Below are positions 9,808 through 31,604 of a DNA stretch of 64,000 nt, one piece after another. This stretch comes from an uncultured bacterium (GTDB lineage Bacteria; Cyanobacteriota; Vampirovibrionia; Gastranaerophilales; Gastranaerophilaceae), in NCBI GenBank assembly GCA_949296355.1, contig CASFPS010000003.1:31111-95110 (forward strand). Direction: 5' to 3'. The position numbers were made by a program, and so were the translations under genes. Below the pieces are notes generated by a model. The model was not told the origin of the DNA. It did not search any database and saw only the letters and a program-made list of their open reading frames with translations. The stretch's first letter is position 1; the number at the start of each line of letters is the position of its first letter.

Positions 9808-10824
9808 TTATGCTTCACGCTTTAATTTTTTTCTGCTTTTGTGCGGGATATCAAGCTTCGGGTTATGGTCGGCTATATCGGCTAAAAATGTTGAAATAAA
9901 AGGGATAAGCATATAATAAACACATCCGACCAGCAGAATCGGTTTGGCAATTTTTATTCCTTCAACCTGCTTATCGAGGTTTTTGTCGTTAATATTTACT
10001 TTTTTGAACTTTTCAATAAATTTTTGGGTAGGTTTTTCCGTAAGCTTATCCAGAATATAACTGCTTATGATACTCAGCCCCGTAGAAATTCCGGCATTAT
10101 AAATCAAAGCTTTTTTTCTTCTCTCTTCTATTTTATCGCTTCTGTTTGTTTCGTGGATAAAAGTTGCTGTCGTAAGCGCATCCGTTGCAGCAACTATGTG
10201 CATAGGGAAATTTGAATCTTTAAACCTGTCTGAAAACTTTTGCATGCATTTTGTATCAAGAATTTTTCCCACACCTTGCGCAAGTTTTTCTCCGGATTTG
10301 CCTTTAAATGACGGGTTTTCATTTTGTTGTTTTTGCGGTTTAGGTTTATGGAAAACTTTTTGCATGACAAACGGCATGCCGGCACAGGTCAGAATAGCTT
10401 TTGGCATAGCAACAATAAGACCCAGCCCTAATTTAAACAGCTGAGTCGCAAGTGTGTAACTTTTAGATTGATATAATTTTTCGTTTCCATTTTTTAGAAA
10501 CTTAATAGTTGACGGCTTAAGATAATTTTGGGGATTTTCATCAATTTTTTTTATTGCGTTTGTAAAGGGGGATGAGACTCCAAGTGTCAAAAGATATCCG
10601 GCACCGCTTGACGAGATTGATTTTGCACAGGCAACTTTTTTGTTCTCCTTGTCTGTATGCGGCGCAAGCCAGATTGCAGCAGGACGCGCTCCCGCGGAGA
10701 GCAAAAGCGTTGTGGTCGCGGCAAACAGTGCACCGTTATCGGCTGCAAACTCCAATCCCCTCTTTAGAGCGTTATTTGTATAAATACTTTTGAATGAGAT
10801 ATCCCTGATTGAATTTACTTTCAT
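9808..10824 (-). CDS. orphan membrane-associated protein with N-terminal I-S-F-K motif
   Basis: No recognised family (338 aa). It starts M-K-V-N-S-I-R-D-I-S-F-K-S, a pattern resembling other orphans in this window, and has P-S-F-K-G around residue 175. Hydrophobic or amphipathic stretches lie near residues 30-52, 72-88, 125-150, 210-222, 240-258 and 292-315, so it is probably multi-pass. The C-terminus is strongly basic. No ribosome binding site is seen before the ATG, and only 24 bases separate it from divergent pnuC. Probably lineage-specific; role unknown. Confidence 0.7.
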   Translation of the reverse strand: MKVNSIRDISFKSIYTNNALKRGLEFAADNGALFAATTTLLLSAGARPAAIWLAPHTDKENKKVACAKSISSSGAGYLLTLGVSSPFTNAIKKIDENPQNYLKPSTIKFLKNGNEKLYQSKSYTLATQLFKLGLGLIVAMPKAILTCAGMPFVMQKVFHKPKPQKQQNENPSFKGKSGEKLAQGVGKILDTKCMQKFSDRFKDSNFPMHIVAATDALTTATFIHETNRSDKIEERRKKALIYNAGISTGLSIISSYILDKLTEKPTQKFIEKFKKVNINDKNLDKQVEGIKIAKPILLVGCVYYMLIPFISTFLADIADHNPKLDIPHKSRKKLKREA

Positions 10825-26387: not shown

Positions 26388-28589
26388 ATGGAACAGTTTG
26401 TAATAACATTTGATGAAATAAGAGCGCTTTTAGTCGAGCAACAGTATCCCGATTCAGACATAGAAGAGTTAGAAAAGGCTTTTGAGTTTGCCAAGAAGCT
26501 TCATGCGGGGCAATACAGGGTTTCCGAAGAACCTTATATTATTCACCCTATGGAAGTCGTAAAAATTCTTATAGGTTTAAGGGCTGATAAGCACACCTTG
26601 ATGGCAGGCTTTTTGCATGACATTCTTGAGGATACCGAAACAAAGCCGGAAGAGATTAAAGAACTCTTTGGCGAAGATGTTTTGAACCTTGTTCAGGGGG
26701 TGACAAAACTCGGTAAACTCCAGTTTAAATCGACGGAAGAGCGTCAGGCAGAGAATTTCCGCCGTATGATGATAGCAATGGCAAGCGACGTCAGGATTAT
26801 ACTTCTTAAACTTGCTGACAGGCTTCATAATATGCGGACTCTTAATTACATGACTCCTGTAAAGCAGCAGAGAATTGCGCAGGAAACTCTGGATATTTTT
26901 GCTCCGCTCGCTAACCGCTTAGGTGTCGGTAAAATTAAGGCGGAACTTGAGGATTTATCTTTAAAATACCTTCATCCGGATAAATATTATGAAATAGCCC
27001 AGCTTGTTTCCCAGAAAAAAGCCGAGCGTGAAATGACCGTAAAACTTTTGATAGATAAGATTTCCAAGGATGTTAAGGCAAGCGGGATTAATGCTCAGAT
27101 TACAGGGCGCGCCAAGCATTATTACAGCATTTATAATAAAATGCAGCGTCTTAATGTTGCATTCCATGACTTGTACGACATTACCGCTGTGCGTGTAATC
27201 GTTGATACGGAAAAAGAATGCTATGAGGTTCTGGGGCTTATACACTCCCAGTTTAAGCCGATTCCGGGGCGTTTTAAAGATTATATTGCAATGCCTAAAG
27301 GAAACATGTATCAGTCTTTGCACACCTCCGTCATAGGTCCGCGGCAAAAACCGCTGGAAGTTCAGATAAGAACATGGGAAATGCACGAGATTGCTGAATA
27401 TGGTATTGCTGCGCATTGGAGATACAAAGAAAAAGGCTCTAAAAAAGCTGATTCGGCAAGTGATATTAAATTCTCGTGGATGAGAAAGCTTGTTGAATAC
27501 AACAAAGAAACCAAAAACGCCGAAGAATTTGTAAACTCTGTCAAATTAGACCTGTTTTCAGACCAGGTATTTGCATTCACGCCGGGCGGTGACGTTATTG
27601 ACCTGCCGCAAGGCGCAACTCCTGTAGACTTTGCTTACCGTATCCACTCGGATGTCGGGCATAAAACAGTCGGTGCGTTAATAAACGGGCGTATTGCGCA
27701 GCTTGATACAAAGCTTAAAAACGGCGACATCGTTGAGATTATGACTTCAAAAGTCGCAGCACCGCGTCTTGACTGGCTGAACTTTGTAGTTACAAAGCAG
27801 GCAGCTTCCAAAATACGACAGTGGTACAAAAAGAACAAGCGCGAAGACCATATTGAAATCGGTAAAGCCAATCTGGAGCATGAGTTAACTAAATCTGTTT
27901 TTGATGATTATGTCAAAAACGGCGAGTTTGATAAAGTTGCAAAGCAGATGAATTATGTGAGCGCGGATGATTTATTTGCTGCGCTGGGCTATGGCGAAAC
28001 AACGGTTAATAAAATTATTAACCGCCTGAGAAAACCGCCGAAGCAGGAAAGCCCGAGTCCGCACAAACCGCGTAAAGCTTCCGAAAAAGATATTGTCGGG
28101 CTGGAAGGACTTTTGTATTCTTTTGCCAGATGCTGTTCTCCGATTCCGGGAGAGCCGATTGTCGGAGTTGTTACCCGCTCTAAAGGCGTAACTGTCCACA
28201 GGCTTGACTGTAAAACTCTGGAGAATATTCCGGTAGAAAGGCTTCTGGATATTCACTGGTCAGGCAATAATGTTAATAAAACATACAGTACTACAATCCG
28301 CATTGAAACCGCTGAAAAACTCGGGCTTTTGAAAGATATAATAGGCGTTGTTTCGGATAACAACACTAATATAAGTTCCGCAAACGTCAAATCAAAAGGT
28401 AAAGTCGGAATTATTGAACTCGGAATAGAACTCGATAACATTGAAACGTTAAGGCGTGTAATGACAGCACTCCAAGCCATGCCGGATGTTTTCAGCGTTA
28501 AGAGAATCCAAACATCATATACAAAGGCTCCGCAGCAATTTACCAAGAAGGTGAATAAATCAAAACATAAGAAATCATCAAATAATTAA
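26388..28589 (+). CDS. rel: bifunctional (p)ppGpp synthetase/hydrolase Rel
   Basis: Long RelA/SpoT homologue, 733 residues. Hydrolase half: H-A-G-Q-Y-R (39-44), H53, the HD pair in F-L-H-D-I-L-E-D-T (75-83) and D-R-L-H-N-M-R-T-L (144-152) are all present, so it should be active. Synthetase half: G-R-A-K-H-Y-Y-S-I-Y-N-K (240-251), D264, F-K-D-Y-I-A-M-P-K (296-304), Y-Q-S-L-H (308-312) and E-V-Q-I-R (324-328). A TGS domain follows (about 393-455), then a helical/Cys region and a C-terminal ACT domain. The gene ends directly against the convergent divergent RelA/SpoT-like gene. Confidence 0.96.
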   Translation: MEQFVITFDEIRALLVEQQYPDSDIEELEKAFEFAKKLHAGQYRVSEEPYIIHPMEVVKILIGLRADKHTLMAGFLHDILEDTETKPEEIKELFGEDVLNLVQGVTKLGKLQFKSTEERQAENFRRMMIAMASDVRIILLKLADRLHNMRTLNYMTPVKQQRIAQETLDIFAPLANRLGVGKIKAELEDLSLKYLHPDKYYEIAQLVSQKKAEREMTVKLLIDKISKDVKASGINAQITGRAKHYYSIYNKMQRLNVAFHDLYDITAVRVIVDTEKECYEVLGLIHSQFKPIPGRFKDYIAMPKGNMYQSLHTSVIGPRQKPLEVQIRTWEMHEIAEYGIAAHWRYKEKGSKKADSASDIKFSWMRKLVEYNKETKNAEEFVNSVKLDLFSDQVFAFTPGGDVIDLPQGATPVDFAYRIHSDVGHKTVGALINGRIAQLDTKLKNGDIVEIMTSKVAAPRLDWLNFVVTKQAASKIRQWYKKNKREDHIEIGKANLEHELTKSVFDDYVKNGEFDKVAKQMNYVSADDLFAALGYGETTVNKIINRLRKPPKQESPSPHKPRKASEKDIVGLEGLLYSFARCCSPIPGEPIVGVVTRSKGVTVHRLDCKTLENIPVERLLDIHWSGNNVNKTYSTTIRIETAEKLGLLKDIIGVVSDNNTNISSANVKSKGKVGIIELGIELDNIETLRRVMTALQAMPDVFSVKRIQTSYTKAPQQFTKKVNKSKHKKSSNN

Positions 28590-29690
28590 TTATTTCTTCT
28601 TTTTGGGATGATTTTCACACTCAAGCATAATTCTGTTTAAATTATTTAAATCGTAAACCGGCGGAAGGTTAGATTTGAGCGGAAGGAAGTAGGCAGGAGT
28701 GTCTGAGCTGAGGTCTACAAACACATTCGGATCCTTCTCTCTCTGGAATATGAACGCTTCACCGCGGTATTGATTAAATTTTTCCAGATATTCTTTATTT
28801 CCCGGCTCGTTTAATGGTTTTACAATATCCACAAGCGGTTTATATTTTTTATCAATGTCTTTGTTGTTTAAAATTTTGAAAAGTTTATCATCCAGTTCCT
28901 TCAAATCATGTACGTCCTTACCCATCAGCATAAGTTCAAACGGACGCGGTTCACCGGGGAACTTGAACAAGAAGTGTATAGCGGAATAATTTACTTCGGT
29001 TATGTCATTCATGTCAAAACGAACTCTACGCTTTTCTTTCATCCCTAAACTTTCCCATTTTTCTTCCTGCACACGCTGCATATTTGCCAAAAAATCGATT
29101 GAAGCATAGTCATACTGTTCTTTTGCAGTACGTTTCATTTTTTCGGTTGTTTTCGGTCTTTTATTTTCAATTTCAATAAGTTCTATTTCACCTTTTTCAA
29201 TTGCAGGGAAAAATCTTGAAAGAAGCTTTTCAACAGTCTTTTTTCTGCCGTCTCTCATAACAATTTTAGCCCCGTTAAGATCCGTCATAAAATCCAAAAC
29301 TTCCGCCTTGCAGTTATACTGGCGTGTTGCGCTTTTTTCTACAATAGATTTCGGTGTTTTAACTCTGCCGCAAAGTTTAAATACAGGCAGCTTCGGATTT
29401 AATTGTGTAGCGACCAGATCACCGAACAGTCTGTTCATAAAAGTTTCAATTTTTTCCTGCATAGGTTCTGCAGCCTTGCTTATAGAACGGGCTACGCCTA
29501 AAGAAACACCCCCCATTGCTCTTGACTGGAGCATTTTAGCAGTCGCGCCAAAAGATACGGTATCTTTCGATAATGCCCTCGGCATTGTCAAACCATAATT
29601 AGTATTCGGATAAGAAACGGTTTTATTATTACTGCCGCTGTTATTTGTTGTCTGGAATGCTCTAAAACCAATGATTTTGGGGATATTCAT
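28590..29690 (-). CDS. divergent RelA/SpoT synthetase-domain protein (366 aa)
   Basis: No full match by eye, but the core aligns with the synthetase domain of the neighbouring Rel. G-R-V-K-T-P-K-S-I-V-E-K (108-119) matches G-R-A-K-H-Y-Y-S-I-Y-N-K; D-L-N-G-A-K-I-V (137-144) matches the strand with the catalytic Asp; Y-S-A-I-H (235-239) matches Y-Q-S-L-H; F-E-L-M-L-M-G (251-257) matches L-E-V-Q-I-R-T with the conserved Glu; V-H-D-L-K-E-L (260-266) matches M-H-E-I-A-E-Y. The P-K segment of the substrate loop is missing and about 75 residues are inserted between strands. No HD, TGS or ACT domain. The N-terminus carries V-S-F-G-A (45-49). AGGAGA fixes the start. Alarmone synthesis, tRNA modification or loss of activity are all possible. 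Confidence 0.6.
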   Translation of the reverse strand: MNIPKIIGFRAFQTTNNSGSNNKTVSYPNTNYGLTMPRALSKDTVSFGATAKMLQSRAMGGVSLGVARSISKAAEPMQEKIETFMNRLFGDLVATQLNPKLPVFKLCGRVKTPKSIVEKSATRQYNCKAEVLDFMTDLNGAKIVMRDGRKKTVEKLLSRFFPAIEKGEIELIEIENKRPKTTEKMKRTAKEQYDYASIDFLANMQRVQEEKWESLGMKEKRRVRFDMNDITEVNYSAIHFLFKFPGEPRPFELMLMGKDVHDLKELDDKLFKILNNKDIDKKYKPLVDIVKPLNEPGNKEYLEKFNQYRGEAFIFQREKDPNVFVDLSSDTPAYFLPLKSNLPPVYDLNNLNRIMLECENHPKKKK

Positions 29691-29768
29691 TTTAATTTCT
29701 CCTGTTGTGTACCAATATTAATAAACACTATAAAAAAAATTTTTGCGCTTTTATTACAAAATATTAAG

Positions 29769-30449
29769 CTAGACCGCAGCTTCTTCTTTTAATGATTCCT
29801 CAATTTTATTTTCATATCCCGTAAATTCGCATATCTGGCGCGCCCATTCTCTTGCGATTTCATCCTCGTCCAGTGTGTAAGAGATAGGTTTTCCTATTTT
29901 CACCGTTATATGTTTTTCAAAAAGTTTTTTGGCATATCCGTCAAATCCGCATATACCTACGGGAATTATATCTGCCTTGAATTTTTTTGCAAAAAGTATA
30001 AAACCTTTGTGAACATTGGTCAGAACAGGCTCTTTGACGATTTTGCCCTGAGGAAAAATTCCCAGTGACCACGATGTATTAAAAACTGATTTTACGGTTT
30101 TAAAAGTTGCAATCTCTGGCTTGTCTCTGTTCACTGCAAAACCGCCTAATGTATGCACAAGAAAACGTAAAAGCTTGCTTTTGTCGTGGAAAAGTTCCTG
30201 TTTTGCCATATATGCAATGGTTCTCCAGGCAGCGACAGCTATAAGCGGAGGATCAATATATGAAACATGGTTTGCCGCAAAAATTACATGGGGATTCTCC
30301 GGAACATTTTCTTTCCCTTCAACCTTCAGATTATACATAAGCTTTGTTACAGGATAAACGACCAGCATTAAAAACAGCATATAATATGATGTTCTGAACC
30401 AGTTATAGTCTTTTTCTGTTCGTCTGTTGTAATTCTTTTCCTTTCCCAT
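29769..30449 (-). CDS. PlsC-type 1-acylglycerol-3-phosphate acyltransferase
   Basis: 226 residues of the glycerolipid acyltransferase family. Motifs: N-H-V-S-Y-I-D-P-P (the H-x4-D catalytic pair) around 59-67, G-G-F-A-V-N-R-D, and F-P-Q-G-K in place of the common F-P-E-G-T-R. An N-terminal hydrophobic segment (about 21-38) anchors it to the membrane. It adds the second acyl chain in phosphatidic acid synthesis, or acylates a related lipid. It is 27 bases downstream of a paralogue, so the pair is likely an operon from gene duplication. Confidence 0.85.
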   Translation of the reverse strand: MGKEKNYNRRTEKDYNWFRTSYYMLFLMLVVYPVTKLMYNLKVEGKENVPENPHVIFAANHVSYIDPPLIAVAAWRTIAYMAKQELFHDKSKLLRFLVHTLGGFAVNRDKPEIATFKTVKSVFNTSWSLGIFPQGKIVKEPVLTNVHKGFILFAKKFKADIIPVGICGFDGYAKKLFEKHITVKIGKPISYTLDEDEIAREWARQICEFTGYENKIEESLKEEAAV

Positions 30450-30476: not shown

Positions 30477-31145
30477 TTATACTTTTACTTTATCTTCTAC
30501 GTATTTAAATCCGGTTAAATCCTCAATTGATTTTTCCCACTGACCTACCATTCCCATAACATCATCGGAATAAGGTATAACTTTTCCTATTCTTACAATA
30601 ATTTTTCCCGTAAAAGGCAGCCTTTTAACTTCCTGCGTGCCTGTAATACCTATTGGCAGAATTCCGCATTTTGTGCTTTTTGCAAGGGTCGCGAAACCTT
30701 TAGCCACATGGCTGATTTCTCCTGCTTCCTGACGTGTTCCCTGCGGGAAAATCCCGAGCACCCAGTCTGTTTGTTTCAAATTCTTGACTGTTTTTATTGT
30801 AGAGACGCTGAGTTTTTCTCTGTCAACGGCAAAAGCTCCGAGCCAGTTAAGCCACCAGCGCATAAAAGGATTTTCAAAAAGTTCCTTTTTCGCCATATAA
30901 GCAACTCCCCTGTTCATCACTGCACACACAAGAGGCGGGTCTAATGTGGACAGGTGGTTTGCTGCTATTATAAAGTCATTGTTTTCAGGAATGTTTTCCC
31001 TGCCGTAAACTTCAAGTCTGTACACCAGTTTAAACCGGATCATATAGAAAACATGCGTTATTATAAACAAAAACATCCGGCGCCATTTGTTATAGAATTT
31101 AGCCTCTCTTAAGCAGTAATTACTGCCTTTTTTATCGTTTGACAT
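30477..31145 (-). CDS. PlsC-type acyltransferase, paralogue
   Basis: 222 residues, same family as the next gene downstream. N-H-L-S-T-L-D-P-P (catalytic H-x4-D), G-A-F-A-V-D-R-E and the more canonical F-P-Q-G-T-R-Q are visible. The N-terminal membrane segment (about 23-40) starts after a charged stretch. Both copies keep the catalytic His-Asp, so both are probably active, perhaps with different acyl donors or acceptors. No strong ribosome binding site is visible upstream of the ATG at 31145. Confidence 0.85.
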   Translation of the reverse strand: MSNDKKGSNYCLREAKFYNKWRRMFLFIITHVFYMIRFKLVYRLEVYGRENIPENNDFIIAANHLSTLDPPLVCAVMNRGVAYMAKKELFENPFMRWWLNWLGAFAVDREKLSVSTIKTVKNLKQTDWVLGIFPQGTRQEAGEISHVAKGFATLAKSTKCGILPIGITGTQEVKRLPFTGKIIVRIGKVIPYSDDVMGMVGQWEKSIEDLTGFKYVEDKVKV

Positions 31146-31217: not shown

Positions 31218-31604
31218 TTATTCTTCGCTTTCTTCTTCCGCTTCTCTGTACTCTTCTTCTGCTTCCGCTTCTAAGCGCTCAATTTCTTTTTCTTCTTTTT
31301 CTTTCTCTTTTTCTTCTTCAAGAATATCTTTAATTGATTTTTTATGTTTTTTGGCATTCAAAACAGAGGCTACATTTGTCATTGCAAGGGAATTCAGAGT
31401 TGCCCTCAAAAGAGCGCTTCTGTCAACAAACTGGTCATTATAGAAGTTTCCGCCTTCTTCTTCACCTTCGGCAGGAGGAAGGTACATAGCTTCAGACCCG
31501 TATTTATCCTGACTCATTTTAGCAGCAGTTCCCGATGGGTCGCCGCTTTTAAAATTAAACGCCCCGCCGATTCCGTAAAAACCTGCTGATCTGTTATCTA
31601 CCAC
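31218..31604 (-). CDS. orphan protein with strongly acidic coiled-coil tail (128 aa)
   Basis: Unrecognised. Residues 1-50 are Gly-rich (F-Y-G-I-G-G-A-F-N-F-K-S-G-D). A hydrophobic helix follows (about 62-82), and from residue 92 the chain is almost only Glu, Lys and Arg, a likely charged coiled coil. The start is GTG at 31604 with GAGG seven bases upstream; an in-frame TGA just before that rules out a longer form. A short upstream frame with a stronger ribosome binding site overlaps this start. Confidence 0.65.
   Translation of the reverse strand: MVDNRSAGFYGIGGAFNFKSGDPSGTAAKMSQDKYGSEAMYLPPAEGEEEGGNFYNDQFVDRSALLRATLNSLAMTNVASVLNAKKHKKSIKDILEEEKEKEKEEKEIERLEAEAEEEYREAEEESEE

Follow-up and report, generated by a model that had tools for sequence, protein, structure and literature searches.

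Within a 64,000-nucleotide stretch of contig CASFPS010000003.1 (the window) from an uncultured bacterium that has Gastranaerophilales as its closest named relatives lies a gene, here called SYN, whose product resembles a strongly diverged synthetase of the RelA/SpoT homologue (RSH) type. SYN is convergent to rel, the gene of a long RSH that is the sole match to the Pfam family PF04607 at E<=0.001 in its own genome. As the sequence-only reading of this DNA had stated, the two stop codons abut tail to tail with a 0-nt spacer (28590 versus 28589). On the other side of SYN lies a pair of genes for PlsC-type acyltransferases, enzymes that act in lipid synthesis. The locus is organized as follows:

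28590..29690, minus strand: SYN, a 366-aa divergent RelA/SpoT-type synthetase-domain protein (open reading frame (ORF) with ATG start, 83 homologues, profile match, AlphaFold2 (AF2) model)
29699..29703, minus strand: AGGAG, a ribosome-binding-type sequence 8 nt 5' of the SYN ATG (read in the sequence)
26388..28589, plus strand: rel, long RSH with HD, synthetase, TGS, AH/RIS and ACT domains, convergent to SYN (Pfam)
29769..30449, minus strand: plsC1, acyltransferase directly upstream of SYN on the same strand, with a 78-bp gap (ORF, Pfam)
30477..31145, minus strand: plsC2, second acyltransferase of the pair (Pfam, neighbourhood comparison)
31218..31604, minus strand: 128-aa ORF of unassigned function, located ahead of the two plsC genes in many relatives (neighbourhood comparison)

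A search of 5.8 billion proteins yielded 83 homologues of SYN, and 75 of these were aligned with the window protein (alignment A1, n=76, with members down to 35% identity to the window SYN) after eight fragments or near-copies had been excluded; another row set, A3, comprises 66 of 120 listed rows out of 317. A profile search with SYN returned 115 proteins (weakest E 2.6e-61), five of which carry a precomputed PF04607 match. On the window SYN, PF04607 scores 13.7 bits and thus stays below its gathering cut-off of 27, and among the A1 members it is found at E<=1 in 58 of 76 (best 2.5e-5). The NCBIfam YjbM model matches 35 of 76 (best 4.2e-6). When the A1 profile was compared with the PDB, the small alarmone synthetases 3l9d, 2be3, YwaC, RelP (6ewz), and YjbM were found (best E 0.0011), the alignment spanning the first half of the domain and the second half aligning weakly. 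A search of PDB sequences with SYN as a single sequence gave nothing useful. As a two-sequence BLASTP comparison of SYN with the neighbouring Rel gave no significant match either (best E 1.5), the likeness of the two rests on profile, fold, and conserved residues. Structure prediction, which the sequence-only reading had proposed beforehand as a check, gave an AF2 model with the RSH fold and not an unrelated one. By predicted fold and active-site residues, SYN can be placed in the RSH synthetase domain superfamily, and the earlier proposal of a divergent RelA/SpoT-like synthetase is thereby supported. No Pfam match to HD, TGS, or ACT was found in SYN, in agreement with its description as an orphan lacking these domains.

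The synthetase domain of SYN comprises the following elements:

29334..29366, minus strand: R109-x-K111-x3-S115-I116-x2-K119, predicted ATP (pyrophosphate donor) site (conservation, spacing)
29280..29282, minus strand: D137, predicted Mg2+ Asp (conservation; FaRel2 D90/R95)
29154..29174, minus strand: E173-I-E175-N-K177-R178-P179 strand, beta 3 (conservation)
28992..29153, minus strand: acceptor-side insert, residues 180-233, modelled as two helices and one strand (AF2 model, spacing)
28974..28991, minus strand: N234-Y235-x3-H239, predicted acceptor-base Tyr and following His (each 76/76)
28935..28937, minus strand: E252, predicted catalytic Glu, beta 5 (76/76; FaRel2 E145 / SaRelP E174)
28860..28901, minus strand: helix with K264, D267, D268, K272, and K277 (each 76/76)

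Invariant in A1 are R109, K111, S115, I116, T136, D137, G140, E175, P179, Y195, N234, Y235, H239, E252, K264, D267, D268, K272, and K277, and K119 is found in 75 of 76 sequences, so the donor, metal, Tyr, and Glu residues matched in the sequence-only reading are indeed conserved in the aligned homologues. Of ten stretches measured, the one that contains E173-P179 has the highest conservation (mean 0.83); its basic residues K177 and R178 are found in 74/76 and 75/76 sequences, respectively. Like the neighbouring long Rel, SYN has the synthetase-domain motifs in the same order; of the set originally listed as common to both, G-R-x-K...S-I-x-x-K, the metal Asp, Y-x-x-[IL]-H, and the Glu hold. The H-[ED]-[IL]-x-E motif turned out to be a chance match: column 261 is His in only 4 of 76 sequences, and K264, D267, D268, K272, and K277 are conserved there instead.

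Two publications give the donor-site residues as R78, K80, S84, K88, R91, D107, R112, E174, and H190 in SaRelP (PMC5794853) and as R64, K66, S70, K74, R77, D90, R95, E145, and Q147 in FaRel2 (PMC11782079). R109/K111/S115/K119 of SYN have the same spacing as R78/K80/S84/K88 and R64/K66/S70/K74, and the donor residues map by spacing to R109, K111, S115, K119, D137, and E252. R123 (R in 63/76) is equivalent to the donor Arg R91/R77, one position off, and Y235 matches the acceptor Tyr Y151 and Y128 of SaRelP and FaRel2, respectively. The adenine-stacking Arg is replaced by K142, five residues past D137 (K in 75/76); position 254, equivalent to FaRel2 Q147, is Met in the window protein and Gln in 38 of 76 members; position 256 is mostly Met; and D268 stands where SaRelP has H190. 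This spacing map suggests that base and ribose contacts are altered, with the donor phosphate, metal, and catalytic positions kept.

On the acceptor side, the sequence lacks the canonical P-K loop that would precede the Tyr, as had been noted before. The distance from the metal Asp to the acceptor Tyr is 98 residues in SYN (87-118 across A1) versus 44 in the Rel of the window, which corrects the inserted length from the roughly 75 residues first estimated to about 54. Residue numbers put this distance at 44 in SaRelP and 38 in FaRel2, and a count along the CapRel sequence gives 44. In conservation, the insert ranks near the bottom of the ten stretches (0.47), and residues 176-233 have a median net charge of +3. 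Further downstream, mean conservation is 0.65 in the helices 261-320 and 0.53 in the tail 321-366.

At the chromosomal level, plsC1 lies directly upstream of SYN in 26 of 28 named loci (35-91 bp before it), and plsC2 precedes plsC1 in all 24 loci whose sequence extends that far. Conservation of the rel adjacency, proposed as a further check, was borne out in part: rel lies tail to tail downstream of SYN within 561 bp in 12 of the 28 (at a distance of -4 to 10 bp in 11 of these 12) and 9 kb away in one more. Other convergent neighbours include a NuoN-like gene, DAHP synthase, and RecG, and in one relative the convergent ORF (L035 3238-4038) matches PF05394 (AvrB_AvrC) over its cut-off (E 7.9e-11). 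In several relatives the same slot is held by a second protein, here called SLOT2, whose sequence likeness to SYN is limited to an N-terminal tag and for which the same RSH fold is predicted. PF04607 is not among the 25 Pfam matches listed for SLOT2. Its best structural match is the exported Streptomyces synthetase 8vx3, which is also among the structural matches found for SYN. Besides the slot at the plsC pair (slot A), a slot B is found in other genera, where the occupant is convergent to the gene of a RumA-type uracil methyltransferase and, in three Pfam-named loci, stands head to head with pyruvate:ferredoxin oxidoreductase. Slot B holds 12 of 12 SLOT2 loci and 4 of 10 SYN loci examined, the other six SYN loci lying elsewhere.

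The tag itself is located as follows:

29547..29564, minus strand: N-terminal tag DTVSFG, SYN residues 43-48 (conservation; common to SLOT2 and otherwise unrelated proteins)

Within A1, F47 is present in 76/76 and D43 in 75/76 sequences, and the lineage motif V-S-F-G of the sequence-only reading is found at residues 45-48. Among 410 ORFs of an own-genome sample, the pattern [VI][ST]F[GKQRST] has 19 starts within residues 1-60 versus 5 within the following 120. In relatives, M29 aminopeptidases and proteins without assigned function are also headed by the tag, and it was recorded at window positions 9808-10824 and in the sample loci L144-L163 as well. A literature search on the N-terminal motif in this lineage gave, among the matches listed, no paper that by its title describes these families. 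Two tagged divergent members (L129 1174-2328 and L130 1238-2263) have Y-T-A-[IL]-H and an Arg five residues past the metal Asp, and seem to be intermediates between SYN and ordinary RSHs.

SYN is lineage-restricted. Matches were found in 30 of 57 genomes of relatives and, in a class sample, in some form in 137 of 289 genomes, 78 of which match the catalytic core (frame 317-526 aa, E<=2.1e-20): 76 from the same family and two from a different family within the order. Weaker core matches are seen in two genomes from other orders in the class, G345 (E 1.7e-14) and G376 (E 9.4e-10). In a phylum sample, 74 of 244 genomes match, none of them outside the same order, and the one match outside the family (G038) covers the tag region only. 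By title, the 28 named loci come from Candidatus Gastranaerophilales (18), Melainabacteria (1), "bacterium" (7), and Acinetobacter (2). No carriage of SYN on phage, plasmid, or viral contigs was found. One genome (G179) has a tandem pair of SYN copies (L228 2206-4187), and G200 likewise has two adjacent matches. Four giant ORFs of 1713-2348 aa (L109 1605-8651, L111 7608-12815, L114 23-5677, and L110 6793-11934) also contain distant relatives of the SYN core, at their C-terminus or close to it; the His of Y-x3-H is replaced by Gln in all four, and PF04607 is over its cut-off in one of the four.

SYN and SLOT2 are hardly ever found together. In the genus (34 genomes), 26 genomes have the SYN core, 8 have SLOT2, and none has both or neither, a tag-only SYN match in G017 not being counted. 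In the family (191 genomes), 74 have SYN, 62 SLOT2, 1 both, and 56 neither, so co-occurrence was observed in 1 genome versus 24 expected (Fisher p 7e-16, without correction for kinship). Weak or incomplete matches, down to E 7.7e-11 for SLOT2 and 2.3e-13 for SYN, are included in these counts. Three SLOT2 matches confined to the N-terminus (G212, G190, and G251) are not, nor are SYN matches that cover the N-terminus only, lie in giant ORFs, or, in a few cases, have a mid-size frame of 470-602 aa. In the one genome with both (G221), SYN and SLOT2 are on different contigs, and the bin may be contaminated. A later check took 30 genomes from the class search, 28 of them from the family or order (G345 and G376 lying outside). 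No SLOT2 core was seen in the 23 genomes that have a SYN core, two tag-only matches (G166 and G414) not being counted, and all five without a SYN core (G409, G416, G417, G437, and G451) had SLOT2.

Trees of the flanking genes indicate at least four occupant changes at slot A (33 rows, 25 SYN and 8 SLOT2; four of the 28 named loci dropped with plsC genes missing or cut, and G033 having SLOT2 away from the plsC pair) and at least three at slot B (16 rows; a 17th locus, L223, without RumA excluded). SYN and SLOT2 behave like exchangeable occupants of the same slots that exclude each other, so they probably share a task. With one kind per genome, two families, one predicted fold, the same slots, and the same tag, it is simplest to assume a single function served by two synthetases that either diverged deeply or were recruited convergently.

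In comparison with RelQ/SAS1 (YjbM) and RelP/SAS2 (YwaC), SYN has about 54 additional acceptor-side residues, Lys in place of the adenine-stacking Arg, E-L-x-x-M-G in place of E-x-Q-x-R, an N-terminal tag, additional C-terminal helices, and a restricted distribution; the features of canonical RelP/RelQ (a compact G-loop before Y-x3-H, the stacking Arg, and E-x-Q-x-R) are thus absent. From the neighbouring long Rel it differs in the lack of HD, TGS, RIS, and ACT, in the extra acceptor-side segment, and in the absence of significant pairwise similarity; lacking HD, TGS, and ACT matches, it is no long RSH. Unlike the exported alarmone synthetases (SaEAS, 8vx3) and Apk1/Tas1, SYN has no recognised export domain. 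In searches of the literature on RSH or ppGpp in Gastranaerophilales and Melainabacteria, whose coverage excluded preprints and most subscription papers, no description of either family was found among the matches listed; toxSAS, CapRel, and exported synthetases, in contrast to these families, are the subject of published papers.

As the donor side is conserved, we favour SYN as a live pyrophosphokinase; the rebuilt acceptor side would leave room for more than one kind of acceptor. SYN would likely transfer pyrophosphate from ATP to a purine nucleotide bound by the rebuilt and enlarged acceptor loop, at the 3' hydroxyl of its ribose. In signalling it would be an accessory to Rel, which has an HD domain and could hydrolyse the product of SYN. 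Three points favour a purine nucleotide over tRNA as the inferred acceptor: the location in chromosomal slots, the absence of an antitoxin partner from the ORFs examined, and the conserved basic pair K177-R178. This account as a whole, a divergent RelA/SpoT-type pyrophosphate transferase with a purine-nucleotide acceptor and accessory signalling beside Rel, is given an even chance of being right. The strong divergence of both families from canonical RSHs suggests that their product or control differs from the (p)ppGpp of the ordinary stringent response. The more specific idea of a lineage-specific second alarmone system, in which SYN and SLOT2 are slot alleles, one kind per genome, with an enlarged acceptor pocket and a 3'-pyrophosphorylated product other than (p)ppGpp, is put forward tentatively and is itself rather doubtful.

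SYN might instead be a tRNA pyrophosphokinase of the CapRel/FaRel2 type, serving immunity or growth arrest, with the acceptor loop and C-terminal helices binding tRNA or restraining the enzyme. The exchange of occupants and the pace of evolution are the best arguments for it: SYN diverges far faster than its neighbours, with an identity of 0.38-0.70 in 37 pairs whose plsC1 identity is 0.80-0.85, and dN/dS in the closest pair is 0.118 for SYN versus 0.020 for rel. However, the PADLOC model PDC-S33, which catches CapRel of SJ46 (E 7e-87, positive control), matches none of the 76 SYN members, nor the SLOT2 protein P0141; the Asp-Tyr distance differs from that of CapRel; mobile carriage was not found; residues 261-320 are well and 321-366 moderately conserved, unlike a hypervariable sensor; and K177 and R178 would suit a phosphate-bearing acceptor. 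We consider this reading unlikely. A CapRel-like protein was seen in a genome of the wider phylum (L137 582-1667; 34.7% identity to CapRel of SJ46 at 92% query coverage, PDC-S33 E 7e-114).

It is less plausible still that SYN is an exported or delivered effector, sorted out of the cytoplasm by the tag in the manner of the exported alarmone synthetases known from other bacteria, with the exchange for SLOT2 reflecting antagonism between kin. The presence of the tag on otherwise unrelated proteins, the structural matches to 8vx3, and the giant-ORF relatives would fit this. Yet no Pfam export domain is found in the window SYN, the export domains listed in PMC12691689 do not include the tag, no secretion-system gene was recognised among the Pfam-named neighbours of the slots, and no recurrent partner ORF of at least 80-100 aa was seen there (shorter ORFs were not searched for). 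Moreover, tag-like N-termini in the own-genome sample, named by eye from sequence, include proteins resembling cytosolic or membrane enzymes, which ill suits an export signal. That SYN and SLOT2 have lost catalysis and serve Rel or the neighbouring lipid genes as regulators or as partners that bind RNA is the least probable, since, despite the substituted adenine and ribose contacts and the lost canonical acceptor loop, the invariant donor, metal, Tyr, and Glu residues would be unneeded in an inactive protein, and slot neighbours vary among lineages, leaving no fixed partner.

For the lineage, the finding means that two families common in one bacterial group resemble RSH synthetases by predicted fold, with SYN mostly below the Pfam cut-off, and that a lineage tag of unassigned function is found on testable proteins. 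If active, SYN and SLOT2 would show a rebuilt acceptor side combined with a fixed donor side, which bears on the choice between GTP, ATP, and tRNA. The one-or-other occupancy of the slots is a natural experiment, and the pair of sequences may help to ask what the function needs.
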